Origin: Thermaerobacter subterraneus DSM 13965 | GTDB taxonomy: Bacteria > Bacillota > Sulfobacillia > Thermaerobacterales > Thermaerobacteraceae | Reading direction: 5' to 3' | Length of the DNA stretch: 64,000 nucleotides | NCBI RefSeq assembly: GCF_000183545.2 | Contig: NZ_JH976536.1 | Coordinates: forward strand, 221,672-285,671 | In this document: in pieces, positions 35,657 through 43,325 of the stretch | How the letters are laid out: each line of letters opens with the position of its first letter | How positions within the stretch are numbered: the stretch's first letter is position 1 | Notes under the pieces: generated by a model | Seen by the model: only the letters and a program-made list of their open reading frames with translations | What the model was told of the DNA's origin: nothing | Databases searched by the model: none | Position numbers and translations under genes: made by a program

Positions 35657-38600
35657 TCAGAGGGCCCGGGCCACCTCCTGCTCCTGGAACACCTCCAGGA
35701 CGTCGCCCTCCTTGATGTCGTTGAAACGCTCGATGCCCACGCCGCACTCGTAGCCCTGGGCCACCTCGCGCACGTCGTCCTGGAACCGCTTGAGGGAGGC
35801 GATGCGGCCCTCGTAGATCACCGTCCCGTCGCGGATCACCCGGACCCGGGCGTTGCGGGCGATCTTGCCGTCGGTGACGTAACAACCGGCCACCGTTCCT
35901 ACCCCGGGCACCTTGAAGGTGGCGCGGACTTCCGCCTGCCCCAGGACGACCTCCCGGATCTCCGGCTTGAGCAGGCCCTGCAGGGCCTTCTTGACGTCGT
36001 CCAGCAGCTCGTAGATGACCCGGTACGTCCGGATCTCCACGTTCTCCTGGTCCGCCGCCCGCCGGGCGTTGGCATCGGGCCGGACGTTGAACCCGACCAC
36101 GACGGCCCGCGAGGCGGCGGCCAGCATCACGTCGGATTCGCTGATGGCGCCCAGGCCGGTGTGCAGCACCCGGACGTAGACCTCGTCGGTGGAGAGGCGC
36201 TCCAGGGCCGGGATCAGGGCGTCCAGCGAGCCCTGCACGTCGGCCTTGACGATCAGGCGCAGCTCCCGCTCGCCCGCGTCGCCGCCGGCCTGCTGGGAGA
36301 ACTGCTCCAGGGTCAGGCCGCGGGCGGCCCGCATCTCCTCCTGGCGCCGTTCCTCCTGGCGCCGGGTGGCGATCTCCCGCGCCTCCCGCTCGTCGGCCAC
36401 CACTTCCAGCCGGTCGCCGGCTTCCGGCACCTCCGAGGCCCCCAGCACCTCCACCGGCGTGGAGGGGCCCGCCTCCTCCACCGGCCGGCCGCGGTCGTCG
36501 AACAGGGCGCGGACCCGGCCGTAGGTCGTGCCGCAGACGAAGGCGTCGCCCACCCGCAGGGTGCCCGTCTGGACCAGGACCGTCGCCACCGGGCCGCGGC
36601 CGCGGTCCAGCTTGGCCTCGATCACGGTACCCACCGCGGGCCGGTCGGGGTTGGCCTTGAGCTCCTGCAGTTCGGCCACCAGCAGGATCATCTCCAGCAG
36701 CTCGGCGATGCCCTGGCCGGTGTGGGCCGACACCTCGACCATGACCGTGTCGCCGCCCCATTCCTCGGGCACCAGGTTGTATTCCACCAGCTGCTGCCGG
36801 ACCCGGTCGGGGTTGGCCTCCGGCTTGTCGATCTTGGTGATGGCCACCACGATAGGCACGCCCGCCGCCCGGGCATGGTTGATGGCCTCGACGGTCTGGG
36901 GCATGACGCCGTCGTCGGCAGCCACCACCAGCACGGCGATGTCCGTCACCTGGGCGCCGCGGGCCCGCAGGGCGGTGAAGGCCTCGTGGCCCGGGGTGTC
37001 GAGGAAGACGATCTTCTTCTCGCCCACCTCCACCACCGAGGCGCCGATGTGCTGGGTGATGCCGCCCGCCTCCTGGGCCGTGACCCGGGTGCTCCGGATG
37101 CGGTCCAGCAGGGACGTCTTGCCGTGGTCCACGTGGCCCAGCACCGTCACCACGGGCCAGCGCGGCTTGAGCCGCTCCGGATCCTCCTCGGCGGCCGCCG
37201 GGTCGGCCTTCCTGGCCAGCTCCGGCTCGGGCTCCTGGATCTTCACCGTGAAGCCGAACTTCTCGGCTACCCTGGCCGCCACGGAGGCATCGATCTCCTG
37301 GTTGATCGCCGCCATGACGCCCATGCCGATCAGGGTCTGGATCACCTGGGCGGGGGTCAGGCCCAGCAGCTCCGCAAAGGCGCCCACGGTCACGGCACCG
37401 GTCAGCGTCACCTCGCCGCCCACCCGGGAGCCGTGGCGGATCTCGTGGGTGGCATCGTCCTGGGCCCGGCGCCGGCGCCGCTCCTCCTTACGGCCGCCGA
37501 AGAGACGCCCGTCGTCCTCGTCCTCCAGGAACTCCCGCTCATCCCGCTCGTATTCCTTGCGCTTGGCTCCACGCCGGGCACCGGCTGCCGGCCGGCCGGC
37601 GCCAGGCCTGCCGGCCGCACCCGGCCGCCCGCCACCGGGCCGCGGCGCCGCAAACCCGCCGCCCGGGCGGCCACCGCCGGGCCGGGGGCCGCCCGGGCGG
37701 CCGGCGGCACCACCCCGCGGCCCGCCGGCCCCGGCCGGGCGGCCTTGAGCCGGGCCCGGGCGGCCGGCGGCGGGTGGCCGGCGGGGCGGCGCGCGGCCGG
37801 CATGCGAGCGGGGTGATGCACGGGCGTCGCCCGGGCAGCCCTCGCCTGGGCGGCCGGGCCGCCCGGGCCGGTCGCCCCGGCGGTCATCCCGGCGCTCGCC
37901 CCGCGCCGGCCCTCCCCTGGGAGCGCCCCGGCCCTGGGCTCCCGCCGGCTGCGGCCCCCGTCCCGGCATGGACCCGGCCGGGCCTCCTGGAGACTGGGGG
38001 CGCGAGCCGGCAGCCCCCGCGGCGGCGGATCCTTGCGGCCCGCCCCGGGCCGGGCCGGCGGGTGGCACCCCTCCGGCACCAGCCGGCCCGGCCGCCGCCC
38101 CAGGGAGCGCACCGGCTCCCGGACGCCCTCCGGCCGGCGCGGCCGGACGCCCGCCGGGGGCTTGTGCACCGCCCGGCCCGGCCCCCTGCCTGGGCGCCAC
38201 GGGCCCCCCGGGCGCCCCCGGTGCACCGGGGCGCGCTGCGCCAGAGCCCGGGCCCGCCCGGGTAGCCGGTGCTCCCGGCCCCCCGCCGGGCCGGGAGGGA
38301 GCCGCAGGCCGGGTGCTCATGCCGTTGCCCGCCCCGCCGGGCGCACCCGCCCTCCCGGCAGCGTGCTGCGGGCCGGCCGGCCGGCCCGTTCCCGCCGCTG
38401 CCCCGGGCGCGGCCCCCTGGGCACGGGCATCACCCGGCCGCCCGCCGGCGGGCGGCCGGCCTGCTGTCGCCGGGTTCGGCATCCCGCTTGGCCTGCCGGC
38501 CCCCGGCGCGCCGCCGGCAGCTGCGCCGGCAGGCCGGGGGCCCGAGCCCGCTGCCGGCCCGCCCGGCCGGGAGGCCGGCGGCGTACCCGGCCGGGATCCC

Positions 38601-38932
38601 TGGGCCGCGGCCGGAGCCCGCCCGCCGTTGCCGTCCGTTGCTGGTGGCGTGCCCCGGCCCGCGGCCGCCCCGCCGGTCCCGCTGCCGGATCTTCCAGGTC
38701 CCCCGGCCGGTGCGGCGCCGGACCTCGGCGTACCCCCGTTCTGCGATCCCTGGCCTGCAGGCCCGGAGTCGCCGCGCAGAATCTGGGTGATCCGGCGCGC
38801 CACCTGGTCGTTGATGGTGCTCATGTGGTTCTGGATGTCGATGTTCAGCTCGTCGTGCAGGATGCGCAGGATCTCCTTGCTCTGCACACCCAGCTTGCGA
38901 GCCAGTTCATAGATGCGAATGCTGCGTGACAA
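35657..38932 (-). CDS. infB: Translation initiation factor IF-2
   Basis: GTPase placing initiator tRNA on the 30S subunit; about 1091 residues. The N-terminal IF2-N module ([23 protein letters not shown]) is followed by an exceptionally long Pro/Gly/Ala/Arg-rich linker (about 58-460). A second IF2-N ([27 protein letters not shown]) precedes the G domain, with G1 GHVDHGKTS near 600, DTPGHEAF and NKID-type TKIDKPEAN. Domains II-IV are complete. TTG at 38932 has GGGGGGTGA 4 nt upstream; GTG at 38941 lies inside that ribosome site. It overlaps the ylxQ end. Confidence 0.97.
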
Positions 38933-39287
38933 ACGGCTCACCCCCCGATTCTGCGCCCGTTCCTCCGGCCCCGGCCGTTAGCCGTTCCCGCAGGGCTGCG
39001 GCCAGTCCCTTGTCCGTCACGGCCAGCACCGCGCACTGGGGCCGGCCGGCTAGCGCACCCAGCTCGCCCTTCCCGCCCCACACCACCAGGGGCACGGCAT
39101 CCCGGGCCGCCAGCCGCGCGAAGCGGCGGTGGCATGCAGCCCCTGCATCGGCCGCCACCACCACCAGCGCCGCCCGCCCCTGCTGGAAGGCGTGACGGAC
39201 GGCGTGATCCCCCGCCGCCAACCGGCCGGCGCGGCGGGCCAGCCCGATGAGTCCCCGCGGATCACCCCTACCGCCCGGCACCGGCAT
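38907..39287 (-). CDS. ylxQ: YlxQ-like L7Ae-family RNA-binding protein
   Basis: L7Ae/L30e-fold protein of 126 residues: [41 protein letters not shown], then [16 protein letters not shown] and [15 protein letters not shown]. It lies between ylxR and infB, overlapping both, which is the conserved nusA-ylxR-ylxQ-infB order. Family members probably bind kink-turn RNA; the specific target is unknown. Confidence 0.93.
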
Positions 39288-39561
39288 CCGCTCCCGTCAC
39301 CAGTTCCGCCAGCTGGCGCCGCAAGGCCTCCACCGCGGCGGCGTCCAGATCGATCTTCAGCGCCCGTCCCAGCTCCCGAGCCCTCAGGGCCCGGTCCAGG
39401 CACGCCGGGTCGGGACAGAGGTACGCTCCCCGCCCGGCCCGCCGGCCCGTGGGGTCGAAGACCACCTCACCCTCCGGGGTGCGCACCACCCGGAGCAACT
39501 CCCGCTTGGGCCGCACTGCCCGGCAGCCGATGCAGGTCCGCTGCGGAATGTGCCTTGGCAC
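39268..39561 (-). CDS. ylxR: YlxR family RNA-binding/regulatory protein
   Basis: Protein of 97 residues with the family hallmarks PQRTCIGCRAVRPKRELLRVVR and GRGAYLCPDPACLDRAL. YlxR (DUF448) proteins are basic, nucleic-acid binding and encoded right after nusA. GTG at 39561 has GAGGTGAC 5 nt upstream. It overlaps ylxQ by 20 bp and follows nusA by 6 bp, so it belongs to the rimP-infB operon. Confidence 0.95.
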   Translation of the reverse strand: MPRHIPQRTCIGCRAVRPKRELLRVVRTPEGEVVFDPTGRRAGRGAYLCPDPACLDRALRARELGRALKIDLDAAAVEALRRQLAELVTGADAGAGR

Positions 39562-39567
39562 GGGCCG

Positions 39568-40989
39568 TCACCTCGATTCCGGGCCGGGCGTGCCCGCGCG
39601 CGGGCTGCCATCCTGGTCCTCCGCCGGCCCCTCGCCGTCCCAGTTGCCTGCCGTCCCGTCGCCTTCCTCCCAGCGGCTGTCGCCGCCGTCGCCGGCCGCA
39701 TCCCAACCGCCGGAGCCATCCTCCCCGGCCCATTCCTCAGCGGCCCCGGCGCCGTGATCATCCCCGCGGTCCCCGTCGCCAGACCACCAGTCCCAGTTCT
39801 CGCCGCCCGCACCGCCGCCGTCGCCGGCGTCGCCGAAGGCCCCGCCGCCGAACAGCTCGTCCAGGTCGTCGTCACCGGCGGTGCCTTCCCGACCCTCCCC
39901 GCCGGATCCGGCCAGCACGGCGTCGATGTCCCAGTCGTCCTCCCGGGCCAGCCACTCGGCCGCCTGGGACTCGGCGTGGATGTCGATCTTCCAGCCCGTC
40001 AGCCGGGCGGCCAGGCGGGCATTCTGGCCTTCCTTGCCGATGGCCAGGGACAACTGGTGGTCGGGCACGATCACCCGGGCCACCCGCGTCTCGGGTTCCA
40101 GGATCACCCGGGTCACCTTGGCCGGGGACAGGGCGTTGGCCACGAACTGCTCGGGTTCCTCCGCCCAGCGGATCACGTCGATGCGCTCGCCCCGCAGCTC
40201 CGCCACCACCGCCTGGACCCGGGCGCCCCGGGGCCCGACGCAGGCCCCCACGGGGTCGACCCGCTCGTCCCGGGTGTCCACGGCCACCTTGGCCCGGACG
40301 CCGGGTTCCCGCACCGCCTCCTTGATCTCTACGATGCCGTCGTGGATCTCCGGCACCTCCAGCTCGAAGAGGCGCTTGATCAGGTTGGGATGGCTGCGGG
40401 AGATGAGGATCTGCGGCCCCTTGGGGGTCTTGCGCACCTCCACGATGTACACCTTGATCCGGTCGCCCGGCCGGTAGCGCTCGCCGGGAATCTGCTCCGA
40501 CGGGAACAGCACCGTCTCGGTCCGGCCCAGGTCGACGAAGACGTTGCGCCCCTGCACCCGCTGCACCACGCCGGTGACGATGTCGCCCTCGCGGGCGATG
40601 AACTCTTCATAGATGAGGTCGCGCTCGGCCTCGCGGATCCGCTGCAGGACGACCTGCTTGGCGGTCTGGGCGGCGATGCGGCCGAAGTCCCGCGGCGTGA
40701 CCTCCTGTTCCACCACGTCCCCGGGCTTGTAGCGGGGGTCGATCTCCCGGGCTTCGGCCACGCTGATCTGGGTCGAAGGATCCTCCACCTCCTCCACCAC
40801 GTCGCGGCGGGCCACCACCCGGATCTCGCCCGTCTCCCGGTCGATGCGCACGGCCACGTTCTGGGCCGTGCCGAAATGGCGGCGGAAGGCCGCCACCAGC
40901 GCCGCTTCGATCGCCTCCAGCAGCGTATCCTTGTCGATGCCCTTCTGCCGCTCCAGATCCTCCAGCGCCTCAATGAATTCCGCATTCAT
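39568..40989 (-). CDS. nusA: Transcription termination/antitermination factor NusA with acidic tail
   Basis: RNA polymerase-binding factor of 473 residues. The N-terminal domain (MNAEFIEALEDLERQKGIDKD), S1 domain (about 135-200, VTGVVQRVQGRNVFVDLGRTE) and two KH domains (about 230-345, including GPRGARVQAVVAELRGE and AIGKEGQNARLAARLTG) are complete. Firmicute NusA normally ends there. Here about 120 further residues are very acidic and rich in Gly and Trp (for example WEEGDGTAGNWDGEG). ATG at 40989 follows AAAGGAGG with a longer than usual gap of about 13 nt. Downstream of rimP in the operon. Confidence 0.96.
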   Translation of the reverse strand: MNAEFIEALEDLERQKGIDKDTLLEAIEAALVAAFRRHFGTAQNVAVRIDRETGEIRVVARRDVVEEVEDPSTQISVAEAREIDPRYKPGDVVEQEVTPRDFGRIAAQTAKQVVLQRIREAERDLIYEEFIAREGDIVTGVVQRVQGRNVFVDLGRTETVLFPSEQIPGERYRPGDRIKVYIVEVRKTPKGPQILISRSHPNLIKRLFELEVPEIHDGIVEIKEAVREPGVRAKVAVDTRDERVDPVGACVGPRGARVQAVVAELRGERIDVIRWAEEPEQFVANALSPAKVTRVILEPETRVARVIVPDHQLSLAIGKEGQNARLAARLTGWKIDIHAESQAAEWLAREDDWDIDAVLAGSGGEGREGTAGDDDLDELFGGGAFGDAGDGGGAGGENWDWWSGDGDRGDDHGAGAAEEWAGEDGSGGWDAAGDGGDSRWEEGDGTAGNWDGEGPAEDQDGSPRAGTPGPESR

Positions 40990-41069: not shown

Positions 41070-41531
41070 CTAGATCCGCACCTGAAGCTGGGTCTTGGCC
41101 ACCGCGTCGCGGGGAATGCGGTGGATCCCCTCCCGGCCGGCGACCACCACGTGCCCGTCTTCCAGTCCCTCCAGGCGACCCTGGAATCGCCGCCGGCCGT
41201 CCACGGGGCGGTAGGTGGTCACCTCCACCTCGCGCCCCCGGAACCAGGCAAACTCCCGATCGTTGCGCAGGGTGCGGTCGAGGCCCGGGGACATGACCTC
41301 CACCACCACGTCCTCGGCCAGGCCGTCCACACCCTCCAGCACCGGATCCAGCGCCTCGCTGAAGGCGGCGCACTCATCCATGGTCACGCCGCCCTCCCGG
41401 TCCACCACGCACTGGAGGAACCAGCGCCCGCCCTCCCGGCGGTACTCCACGTCCAGCAGGACCAGCCCCCGCTGCTCGGCCAGGGGCTCCGCCAGCTGGG
41501 CGACGGCCGCCTCCACCTTGCGGTTGCTCAC
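41070..41531 (-). CDS. rimP: Ribosome maturation factor RimP
   Basis: Protein of 153 residues needed for 30S maturation. Conserved blocks are GLVLLDVEYRREGGRWFLQCVVDREGGVTMDECAAFSEALDPVLE, EVMSPGLDRTLRNDREFAWFRGREVEVTTYRP and a C-terminal SH3-like barrel. GTG at 41531 has GGGGAGG upstream. It is the first gene of the rimP-nusA-ylxR-ylxQ-infB operon. The 522 bp upstream contain no gene but hold a promoter, a structured leader and a terminator. Confidence 0.96.
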   Translation of the reverse strand: MSNRKVEAAVAQLAEPLAEQRGLVLLDVEYRREGGRWFLQCVVDREGGVTMDECAAFSEALDPVLEGVDGLAEDVVVEVMSPGLDRTLRNDREFAWFRGREVEVTTYRPVDGRRRFQGRLEGLEDGHVVVAGREGIHRIPRDAVAKTQLQVRI

Positions 41532-41656
41532 CCTGTCGCCTCCCCGCGGGTGGCCCGCCGGACCGGCCTGCCCCGGCCGCCCGGCGTCCCCCGGGCGTTC
41601 CCCGGCGGGCGGGCCGGTCCCGCCACCCGGCTTACACGACACCGCCCCATAACGAT

Positions 41657-41837
41657 CGAAAAGAGTGGGCGCAGAACCCACTCTTCCGGGACCATCGCTG
41701 GTTGGCGGCATGGCCCGGCGGGGACGAACCAGCCACCTTCCGGCCTACCGCCGGACCCCGCAACGGGCGCCCGCGCCGGCCACGGGGCCGGGCGCACCTG
41801 CCCAGAAGCAAGACCAGCGCCCTGAGGGCGCTACCTT
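41657..41837 (-). ncRNA. Structured leader RNA upstream of rimP-nusA-infB (unrecognised class)
   Basis: About 180 nt lie between the promoter at 41844-41872 and the terminator at 41659-41685, with no credible ORF. Helices seen: 41816-41822/41826-41832 (7 bp, 3-nt loop); 41773-41795 (CCGGCC stem); 41718-41723/41756-41761, enclosing 41739-41744/41750-41755; 41697-41703/41727-41733 (7 bp, exact); and 41686-41695/41710-41718 (9 bp with a bulge). The last three partly exclude one another, as in attenuators or riboswitches. I recognise no tRNA, T-box, SRP, 6S or known riboswitch core. It may be a leader or a free small RNA. Between the terminator and rimP (about 125 nt) only GC-rich sequence is seen. 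Confidence 0.5.
41659..41685 (-). terminator. Terminator in the rimP leader
   Basis: On the minus strand AAGAGTGGG, a 7-nt loop, CCCACTCTT, then TTCG, giving four consecutive T at the stem end. It lies about 130 bp upstream of rimP and directly follows the competing helices of the leader. Confidence 0.75.
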
Positions 41838-41843
41838 GGGGCG

Positions 41844-41872
41844 AGTATACCACAGGCCCCAGGGGCCGGCAA
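41844..41872 (-). promoter_or_regulatory. rimP-operon promoter (vegetative type, extended -10)
   Basis: TTGCCG (41872-41867), 17-bp spacer ending TGG, TATACT (41849-41844) on the minus strand. It is the same architecture as the rpsO and rpsB promoters in this window. Between it and the DUF4010 gene stop (42054) nothing else is recognised. Confidence 0.75.
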
Positions 41873-42053: not shown

Positions 42054-43325
42054 CTACGGCGCCAGGCCGGTGGCCGCCAGGAAGAGGGGGTTCAGCAGCA
42101 AGCCCAGCCCCCCCGCCACCACCATCCCTACGATGGTGATCAGGAGCTGGCGGCCCAGGGCCGTGCCCCGGGCCGCCCGCTGGACGATGGGCACCAGGAT
42201 GACGGCGCTGGCCAGGGAGGCCAGAACGGTGCCGTAGGCGGCCTGGGACGGTGCGATCCGGCCCTGGGCGGCCAGGTTGGCGGCGGTGGCGGCGCTGGAG
42301 GCGCTGGACACCAGACCGCCGAGGAAGCTCACGCCGTAGAACCCGGCGGTGCCCAGGTACCGCTGGCCCAGGGTGGCGATGACGTTCAGCACCAGAAACA
42401 CCAGCCCGAACTCCAGGGCCGCCCGCACCGAAAAGGGCGAGGTCAGCCGGACCTCCGGCGCTTCTTCCCCGGCCGGCACCCGGGCCCGGGCGGCCAGCAC
42501 CAGGGCGAGGACCAGCATGAGCCCCACGGGCAGGAGGCCGTAGGGCAGGGCCACGGGAGCGAACAGGCCCAGGACCAGGCCGTTGCGGATGAACATCGCC
42601 GCCTTGGCCAGCATCACGCCGCGGAAGGCAAACCGCTCCAGCGGCGGGTTCGCACCGACCTTGAGGGCCATCTCGGCCACGGTGGCGGTGCTGTTCACCA
42701 GCCCGCCCAGGAAGCCCGTGTAGGTGACGCCCCGCGCGCCGTAGACCCGCAGGAGCACGTAGTTGGCGAACCCGATGGCCGAGATCAGCACCACCATGAG
42801 CCACACCCGGCGCAGGTCGAACAGGCCCCAGGGGTCGACGGGCTCGTCCGGCAGGACGGGCAGGATGACAAAGGAGATCACCCCCAGGTAGATGGCCGCG
42901 TGGACCTCGTCCCGGGAGATCAGGGCCGTCCAGCCCACCAGCTCCTCCTTCCAGGAAAGCAGGAGCAGCATCAGGATGGTGGCCGCCACGGGCGTGAAGA
43001 TCTGGCCGCGGCCCACCAGGATGCCGTTCAGGGCGGTGAGCAGGAGGGCCACGGAGGTGGTGATCTCGACGCTTTCGTGGGCGCGCAGGTTCTGCCAGCT
43101 GTTGATCAGCACCACCAGGGCGGTGAAGGCCAGGACGGCCAGCATGAAGGGCAACCGGTAGGGCGGTTCGGTGGAGGCCGCCAGGGTCCCGGCCAGGGCG
43201 GTGAAGGCGAAGGTGCGCATACCCAGTTCCTTGCCCGCCCGGTGCCGCTCCAGGCCTACCAGGAGGCCCAGGGCCAGGGACAGGGCCAGGCTTTGCAGGT
43301 CGACCCAGCTTGCTTCCGGCCGCAT
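42054..43325 (-). CDS. MgtC/SapB-like membrane protein with DUF4010
   Basis: Polytopic membrane protein of 423 residues with about eleven hydrophobic segments. The N-terminal third is MgtC-like (LALGLLVGLERHRAGKELGMRTFAFTALAG, typical GLERE...RT pattern). The C-terminal part (SAIGFANYVLLRVYGARGVTYTGFLGGLVNSTATVAEMA, later SFLGGLVSSASSAATAANLA) fits DUF4010. The repeated LGGLVxS motif suggests an internal duplication. Function unknown; Mg-related transport roles are speculative. It occupies the spot between proS and rimP where B. subtilis has polC. Confidence 0.88.
   Translation of the reverse strand: MRPEASWVDLQSLALSLALGLLVGLERHRAGKELGMRTFAFTALAGTLAASTEPPYRLPFMLAVLAFTALVVLINSWQNLRAHESVEITTSVALLLTALNGILVGRGQIFTPVAATILMLLLLSWKEELVGWTALISRDEVHAAIYLGVISFVILPVLPDEPVDPWGLFDLRRVWLMVVLISAIGFANYVLLRVYGARGVTYTGFLGGLVNSTATVAEMALKVGANPPLERFAFRGVMLAKAAMFIRNGLVLGLFAPVALPYGLLPVGLMLVLALVLAARARVPAGEEAPEVRLTSPFSVRAALEFGLVFLVLNVIATLGQRYLGTAGFYGVSFLGGLVSSASSAATAANLAAQGRIAPSQAAYGTVLASLASAVILVPIVQRAARGTALGRQLLITIVGMVVAGGLGLLLNPLFLAATGLAP

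Follow-up and report, generated by a model that had tools for sequence, protein, structure and literature searches.

The terminator that precedes rimP-nusA-infB in the window (the whole stretch of DNA analysed, 64,000 nucleotides of Thermaerobacter subterraneus DSM 13965) is, judged by its sequence, the already described and very widespread rimP/nusA leader terminator, and it very probably acts through NusA-stimulated termination in the leader with feedback on the NusA supply. The original prediction of an autoregulatory leader with a terminator on the NusA operon is supported. Its statement that the region resembles no known leader class is not, since the terminator is that of the rimP-leader (PMC2965389) and is present at all testable rimP loci in the class. 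Beyond what is known, there are solely about 110 additional bases of leader, which are conserved in the genus.

Promoter, terminator and relation to known leaders

The features of the region are collected in Table 1. The extended -10 promoter, part of the original prediction, was found as proposed, and so was the leader with a terminator about 130 bp before rimP: the leader is about 150 nt long, and about 127 nt separate the U-tract from the GTG of rimP (about 65 to 210 nt among other genus members). The stem core, GAGUGGG-UUCUGCG-CCCACUC, lies at 41683-41663, and the U-stretch CUCUUUUC (41665-41658), a short run with four U, is directly 3' of the hairpin. Profile matches in the window give the operon order rimP, nusA, rnpM (ylxR), ylxQ-like, infB. 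In the IF2 encoded here, about 500 N-terminal residues with a high share of Pro, Ala and Gly precede the conserved core, the match to which begins at residue 509.

Table 1. Positions of leader and operon features in the window
Feature	Position	Strand	Description
Extended -10 promoter	41872-41844	minus	TTGCCG (41872-41867), 17 nt, TGG-TATACT (-10 at 41849-41844); 1 found vs 0.0 in shuffles
Predicted transcription start	41837	minus	about 7 nt past -10; placed from promoter position
5' hairpin	41816..41832	minus	AGCGCCC-TCA-GGGCGCT; 7/7 pairs in 4/4 genus genomes, arms invariant
Invariant block	41795..41822	minus	GGGCGCTGGTCTTGCTTCTGGGCAGGTG; within genus
Nested hairpin	41714..41755	minus	TCCGGCGG (41755-41748) / CCGCCGGG (41721-41714); supersedes helices of original prediction
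Nearly invariant block	41676..41710	minus	TGCCGCCAACCAGCG-A/T-TGGTCCCGGAAGAGTGGGT; runs into terminator
rimP-leader terminator	41659..41686	minus	GAAGAGTGGG (41686-41677), loop TTCTGCG, CCCACTCTTT (41669-41660), U-tract 41662-41659
Shine-Dalgarno-like site	41539..41545	minus	GGGGAGG before rimP; from sequence
rimP	41070..41531	minus	153 aa, GTG start at 41531
nusA	39568..40989	minus	473 aa; TIGR01953, 453.5 bits
rnpM (ylxR)	39268..39561	minus	NF047356, 103.3 bits vs cutoff 80
ylxQ-like, L7Ae-family RNA-binding protein	38907..39287	minus	NF005825, under its cutoff
infB (IF2)	35657..38941	minus	TIGR00487, 835 bits

The rimP-leader was described by Naville and Gautheret (2010) in Firmicutes and Gammaproteobacteria and called the most ubiquitous attenuator; its terminator stem is GGGc...gCCC, and the distance from terminator to gene is 4-130 nt (PMC2965389). 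Like the Firmicutes type, the element of the window stands before rimP-nusA-infB, has a GGG...CCC stem core followed by a U-tract, shows no visible antiterminator, and has a distance to rimP near the top of the published range. It differs in its longer stem core (GAGUGGG/CCCACUC), in also occurring directly before nusA in some lineages, and in a distance from start to hairpin that exceeds the class median by about 110 nt in the genus.

In E. coli, where metY precedes rimP, a GGGC/GCCC terminator lies just before rimP and a CCCCG/CGGGG terminator lies ahead of that one. The former resembles the element of the window, and the CCCC/GGGG hairpin recalls its 5' hairpin. However, E. coli has two tandem terminators, whereas the 5' hairpin of the window is without a proper U-tract. 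In addition, the GGGC/GCCC stem differs in sequence from that of the window, so that the two may not share one recognition. The gammaproteobacterial rimP leader model, RF01770, did not match any of the four genomes of the genus at E <= 10. The Rfam search suggested in the original prediction was carried out, and no Rfam family, T-box and other leader classes included, reached gathering score in any part of the window (two matches under that score were at chance level); no tRNA or tRNA-like sequence was found in the window.

Conservation of the hairpin

A RimP search of 61 related genomes gave 49 loci with sufficient upstream DNA, and a hairpin of the GAGUGGG-loop-CCCACUC-UUU type is present at all 49. 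The stem is nearly invariant: the three loop-proximal G-C pairs never change, the fourth is U-A at 48 loci and a compensatory A-U at one, and the pairs further from the loop (G-C, then A-U) are again invariant. In other words, GTGGG/CCCAC occurs in 48 of the 49 hairpins and GAGGG/CCCTC in the remaining one, L056, which is the sole locus of the class with an altered stem core (GAGAGGG/CCCTCTC); this swap indicates that pairing is kept as well as sequence. Almost every class locus has a TGNTATANT-type -10 element ahead of the hairpin, with few exceptions in the extended form (TGN next to the hexamer on its 5' side), and the median distance from predicted start to hairpin is 41 nt. Neither RimP nor the hairpin was found in the one sister-genus genome examined, the assembly of which is fragmented.

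The hairpin occurs once per genome within the genus, and the 22 nt past its U-tract (41636-41657, GATCGTTATGGGG...) are 86-100% identical there. A conserved motif at this place across the class (UUUCA[UA]CGU-like) was also considered and was rejected, as its enrichment barely exceeded that of the shuffled control. Genome G005 has a second GAGTGGG/CCCACTC hairpin elsewhere (C28:52893; L180 1501-1523).

We extended the comparison by a scan in a collection of 84,980 species' genomes using the pattern GAGTGGGTN{2,8}CCCACTCTTT, which gave at least 119 matches. Among the 119 matches listed, 111 lie directly before rimP (91) or nusA (20), and of the other eight, several are cut by contig or locus ends. 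According to the record titles, the listed matches belong to Bacillota, Verrucomicrobiota, Armatimonadota, Chloroflexota, Atribacterota, Nitrospirota and other phyla. Five listed matches (L173, L111, L112, L148 and L176) have neither rimP nor nusA detected nearby; they may be chance occurrences, or the hairpin may serve another purpose there. At 17 loci among the listed matches, nusA comes first, 37-124 nt past the hairpin, without rimP between (L069, L074, L075, L084, L088, L091, L096, L105, L107, L110, L118, L127, L131, L133, L155, L163 and L167); by record title they are largely from Verrucomicrobiota, Armatimonadota and Chloroflexota, and also from Atribacterota and some Bacillota. The hairpin thus tracks nusA. 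A stem that is nearly frozen over so many phyla is probably recognised in a sequence-specific manner, beyond hairpin strength alone.

Folding and extension of the leader

The original prediction combined three helices that cannot all form as simple nested stems, and concluded that there are alternative folds or a pseudoknot. It made the case depend on conservation of the helices and the terminator in relatives, of which the terminator is conserved and the helices are not. Helix 41697-41703/41727-41733 has seven of seven pairs in the window, six in the nearest relative and five in G001, with the helix deleted in G003; of the six pairs of helix 41718-41723/41756-41761, G001 and G003 retain four; and in helix 41686-41695/41710-41718 the CCAT/ATGG half falls to two or three of four pairs in relatives. 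Two of the three therefore fail and the third weakens, although all three are present as strings in the window sequence. Exact short helices are expected at this G+C content. The nested hairpin that replaces them (Table 1) has all eight pairs in all four genus members, with one change from U-G to C-G.

The consensus fold of the four genus leaders is nested throughout. Note that the fold took in promoter DNA, so that its pairs with positions ahead of the start carry no meaning; the only one of the 71 predicted pairs with a two-sided change in the four genomes is located upstream of the start, outside the transcript. The whole leader folds with z -2.5, but for the leader minus terminator the four members of the genus range from z -0.87 to +0.11, which is no better than shuffled sequence, and the folding excess is thus the terminator itself. 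Moreover, a search for an antiterminator, that is, a complement of the 5' arm of the terminator, gave none over chance in 47 leaders (mean z +0.44; genus about +1). Two long-range pairings between invariant blocks, CGCTGGT/ACCAGCG and CTTCTGGG/CCCGGAAG, were also tried and set aside: their chance P values are 0.09 and 0.26, and they are uninformative because they are invariant. With a nested fold, helices that fail in relatives and no antiterminator over chance, neither the alternative folds nor the pseudoknot is upheld, and the idea of a riboswitch is likewise not supported, as there are no conserved mutually exclusive helices in the four genus sequences and no antiterminator in the 47 leaders. 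The lack of an antiterminator fits a protein-driven rather than an RNA-switch design.

The leader is nevertheless unusual in its length. In the four genus genomes, two of which are 99% alike, the hairpin lies 127-152 nt past the predicted start, versus the class median given above. Between the more distant genus species, the leader has an ungapped identity of 0.86-0.91, versus 0.60-0.65 for the 4-fold sites of rimP (0.76 for G003-G001) and 0.48-0.69 for the spacer past the terminator, and we take the extension to be under selection because the identity of the leader exceeds both. Strands 41838-41826 (beginning with the run CAAGGTAGCGCCC), 41822-41795, 41710-41696 and 41694-41676 are invariant in the genus. 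The 21-nt core of the 41795..41822 block is single copy and, among 154 class genomes, matches exactly solely in the genus; a second copy of this 5' block was rejected, since the rest of the class has few matches with 2-3 mismatches, and these are scattered, like those of reversed-pattern controls. In G006, a member of the order, only 18 nt separate start and hairpin, so that the extension looks like a gain at the genus or family level. On these comparisons, the extension is constrained and found in this genus alone.

Proposed control, alternatives and significance

Transcription would start near 41837 and meet the GAGUGGG/CCCACUC hairpin and then the short U-tract. When free NusA is plentiful, RNA polymerase would be stimulated to stop at this terminator; when NusA is scarce, it would read through into rimP-nusA-rnpM-ylxQ-infB. 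NusA autoregulation of this kind, by NusA-stimulated leader termination, was reportedly described in B. subtilis by Mondal et al. in 2016. According to a review (PMC12288461, citing its reference 34), B. subtilis NusA stimulates termination in its own 5' leader, and NusA has been named the best candidate regulator of the rimP-leader (PMC2965389). The B. subtilis case shares with the window the operon, the terminator in the 5' leader and the nusA gene downstream; it was shown there with a NusA-depletion strain, whereas in the window the control is predicted. In S. agalactiae, premature termination in the same operon occurs 31 nt past the start (PMC4448216), so that a short transcript likewise ends at the terminator, although that leader is far shorter. 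We infer the NusA dependence and the feedback from B. subtilis, E. coli and S. agalactiae.

NusA feedback does not need the conserved genus extension, which may tune termination or RNA stability. Alternatively, the extension could be a genus-specific aptamer-like domain, made up of the 5' hairpin, the invariant strands and the middle hairpins and inserted between promoter and terminator, that adds a second input to the NusA/IF2 supply. Its signal could be, for example, a protein of ribosome assembly, the operon's own L7Ae-family product or a small molecule. The elevated identity and length of the leader, and invariant strands that flank variable yet paired arms, are what such a domain has in its favour, but we consider it unlikely on four genomes of which two are nearly the same, given the single two-sided change outside the transcript, a terminator-less leader that folds like shuffles, long-range helices at chance level, and no complement of the terminator arm over chance.

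The remaining alternatives concern the hairpin and the leader as a whole. Feedback by RimP binding to the hairpin has been raised as a possibility, as RimP acts on ribosomal RNA (PMC2965389) and the hairpin precedes rimP in most genomes; the 17 listed nusA-first loci and the autoregulation of NusA reported for B. subtilis (PMC12288461) make this very improbable. Also very improbable is an ordinary intrinsic terminator without a regulatory role, at which the transcription unit upstream would end: although the hairpin with its U-tract is a good one and ORF 42054-43325, upstream of it, shares the strand of the operon, the hairpin sits past the operon's own promoter, its stem is conserved far beyond the needs of termination, and 111 of the 119 listed matches are found before rimP or nusA. 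Leader-peptide attenuation is hardly credible, for the ATG at 41711, which shares the reading frame of rimP in the window, is replaced by GTG in G001 and its frame is lost in G003 (both read by eye), there is no conserved Shine-Dalgarno sequence, and across the class both the hairpin loops and the length of the leader vary freely.

Its identification as the rimP/nusA type links this leader with a control point, known and widespread, for a factor of transcription termination, and it no longer counts as a candidate new riboswitch. What the analysis appears to add to published work is that the stem is nearly frozen over many phyla, implying sequence-specific recognition, and that the element stays with nusA where no rimP lies between, which points to NusA as both the regulated and the regulating gene. 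Its value lies in the breadth of the element, the specificity of its stem and the nusA-first loci.
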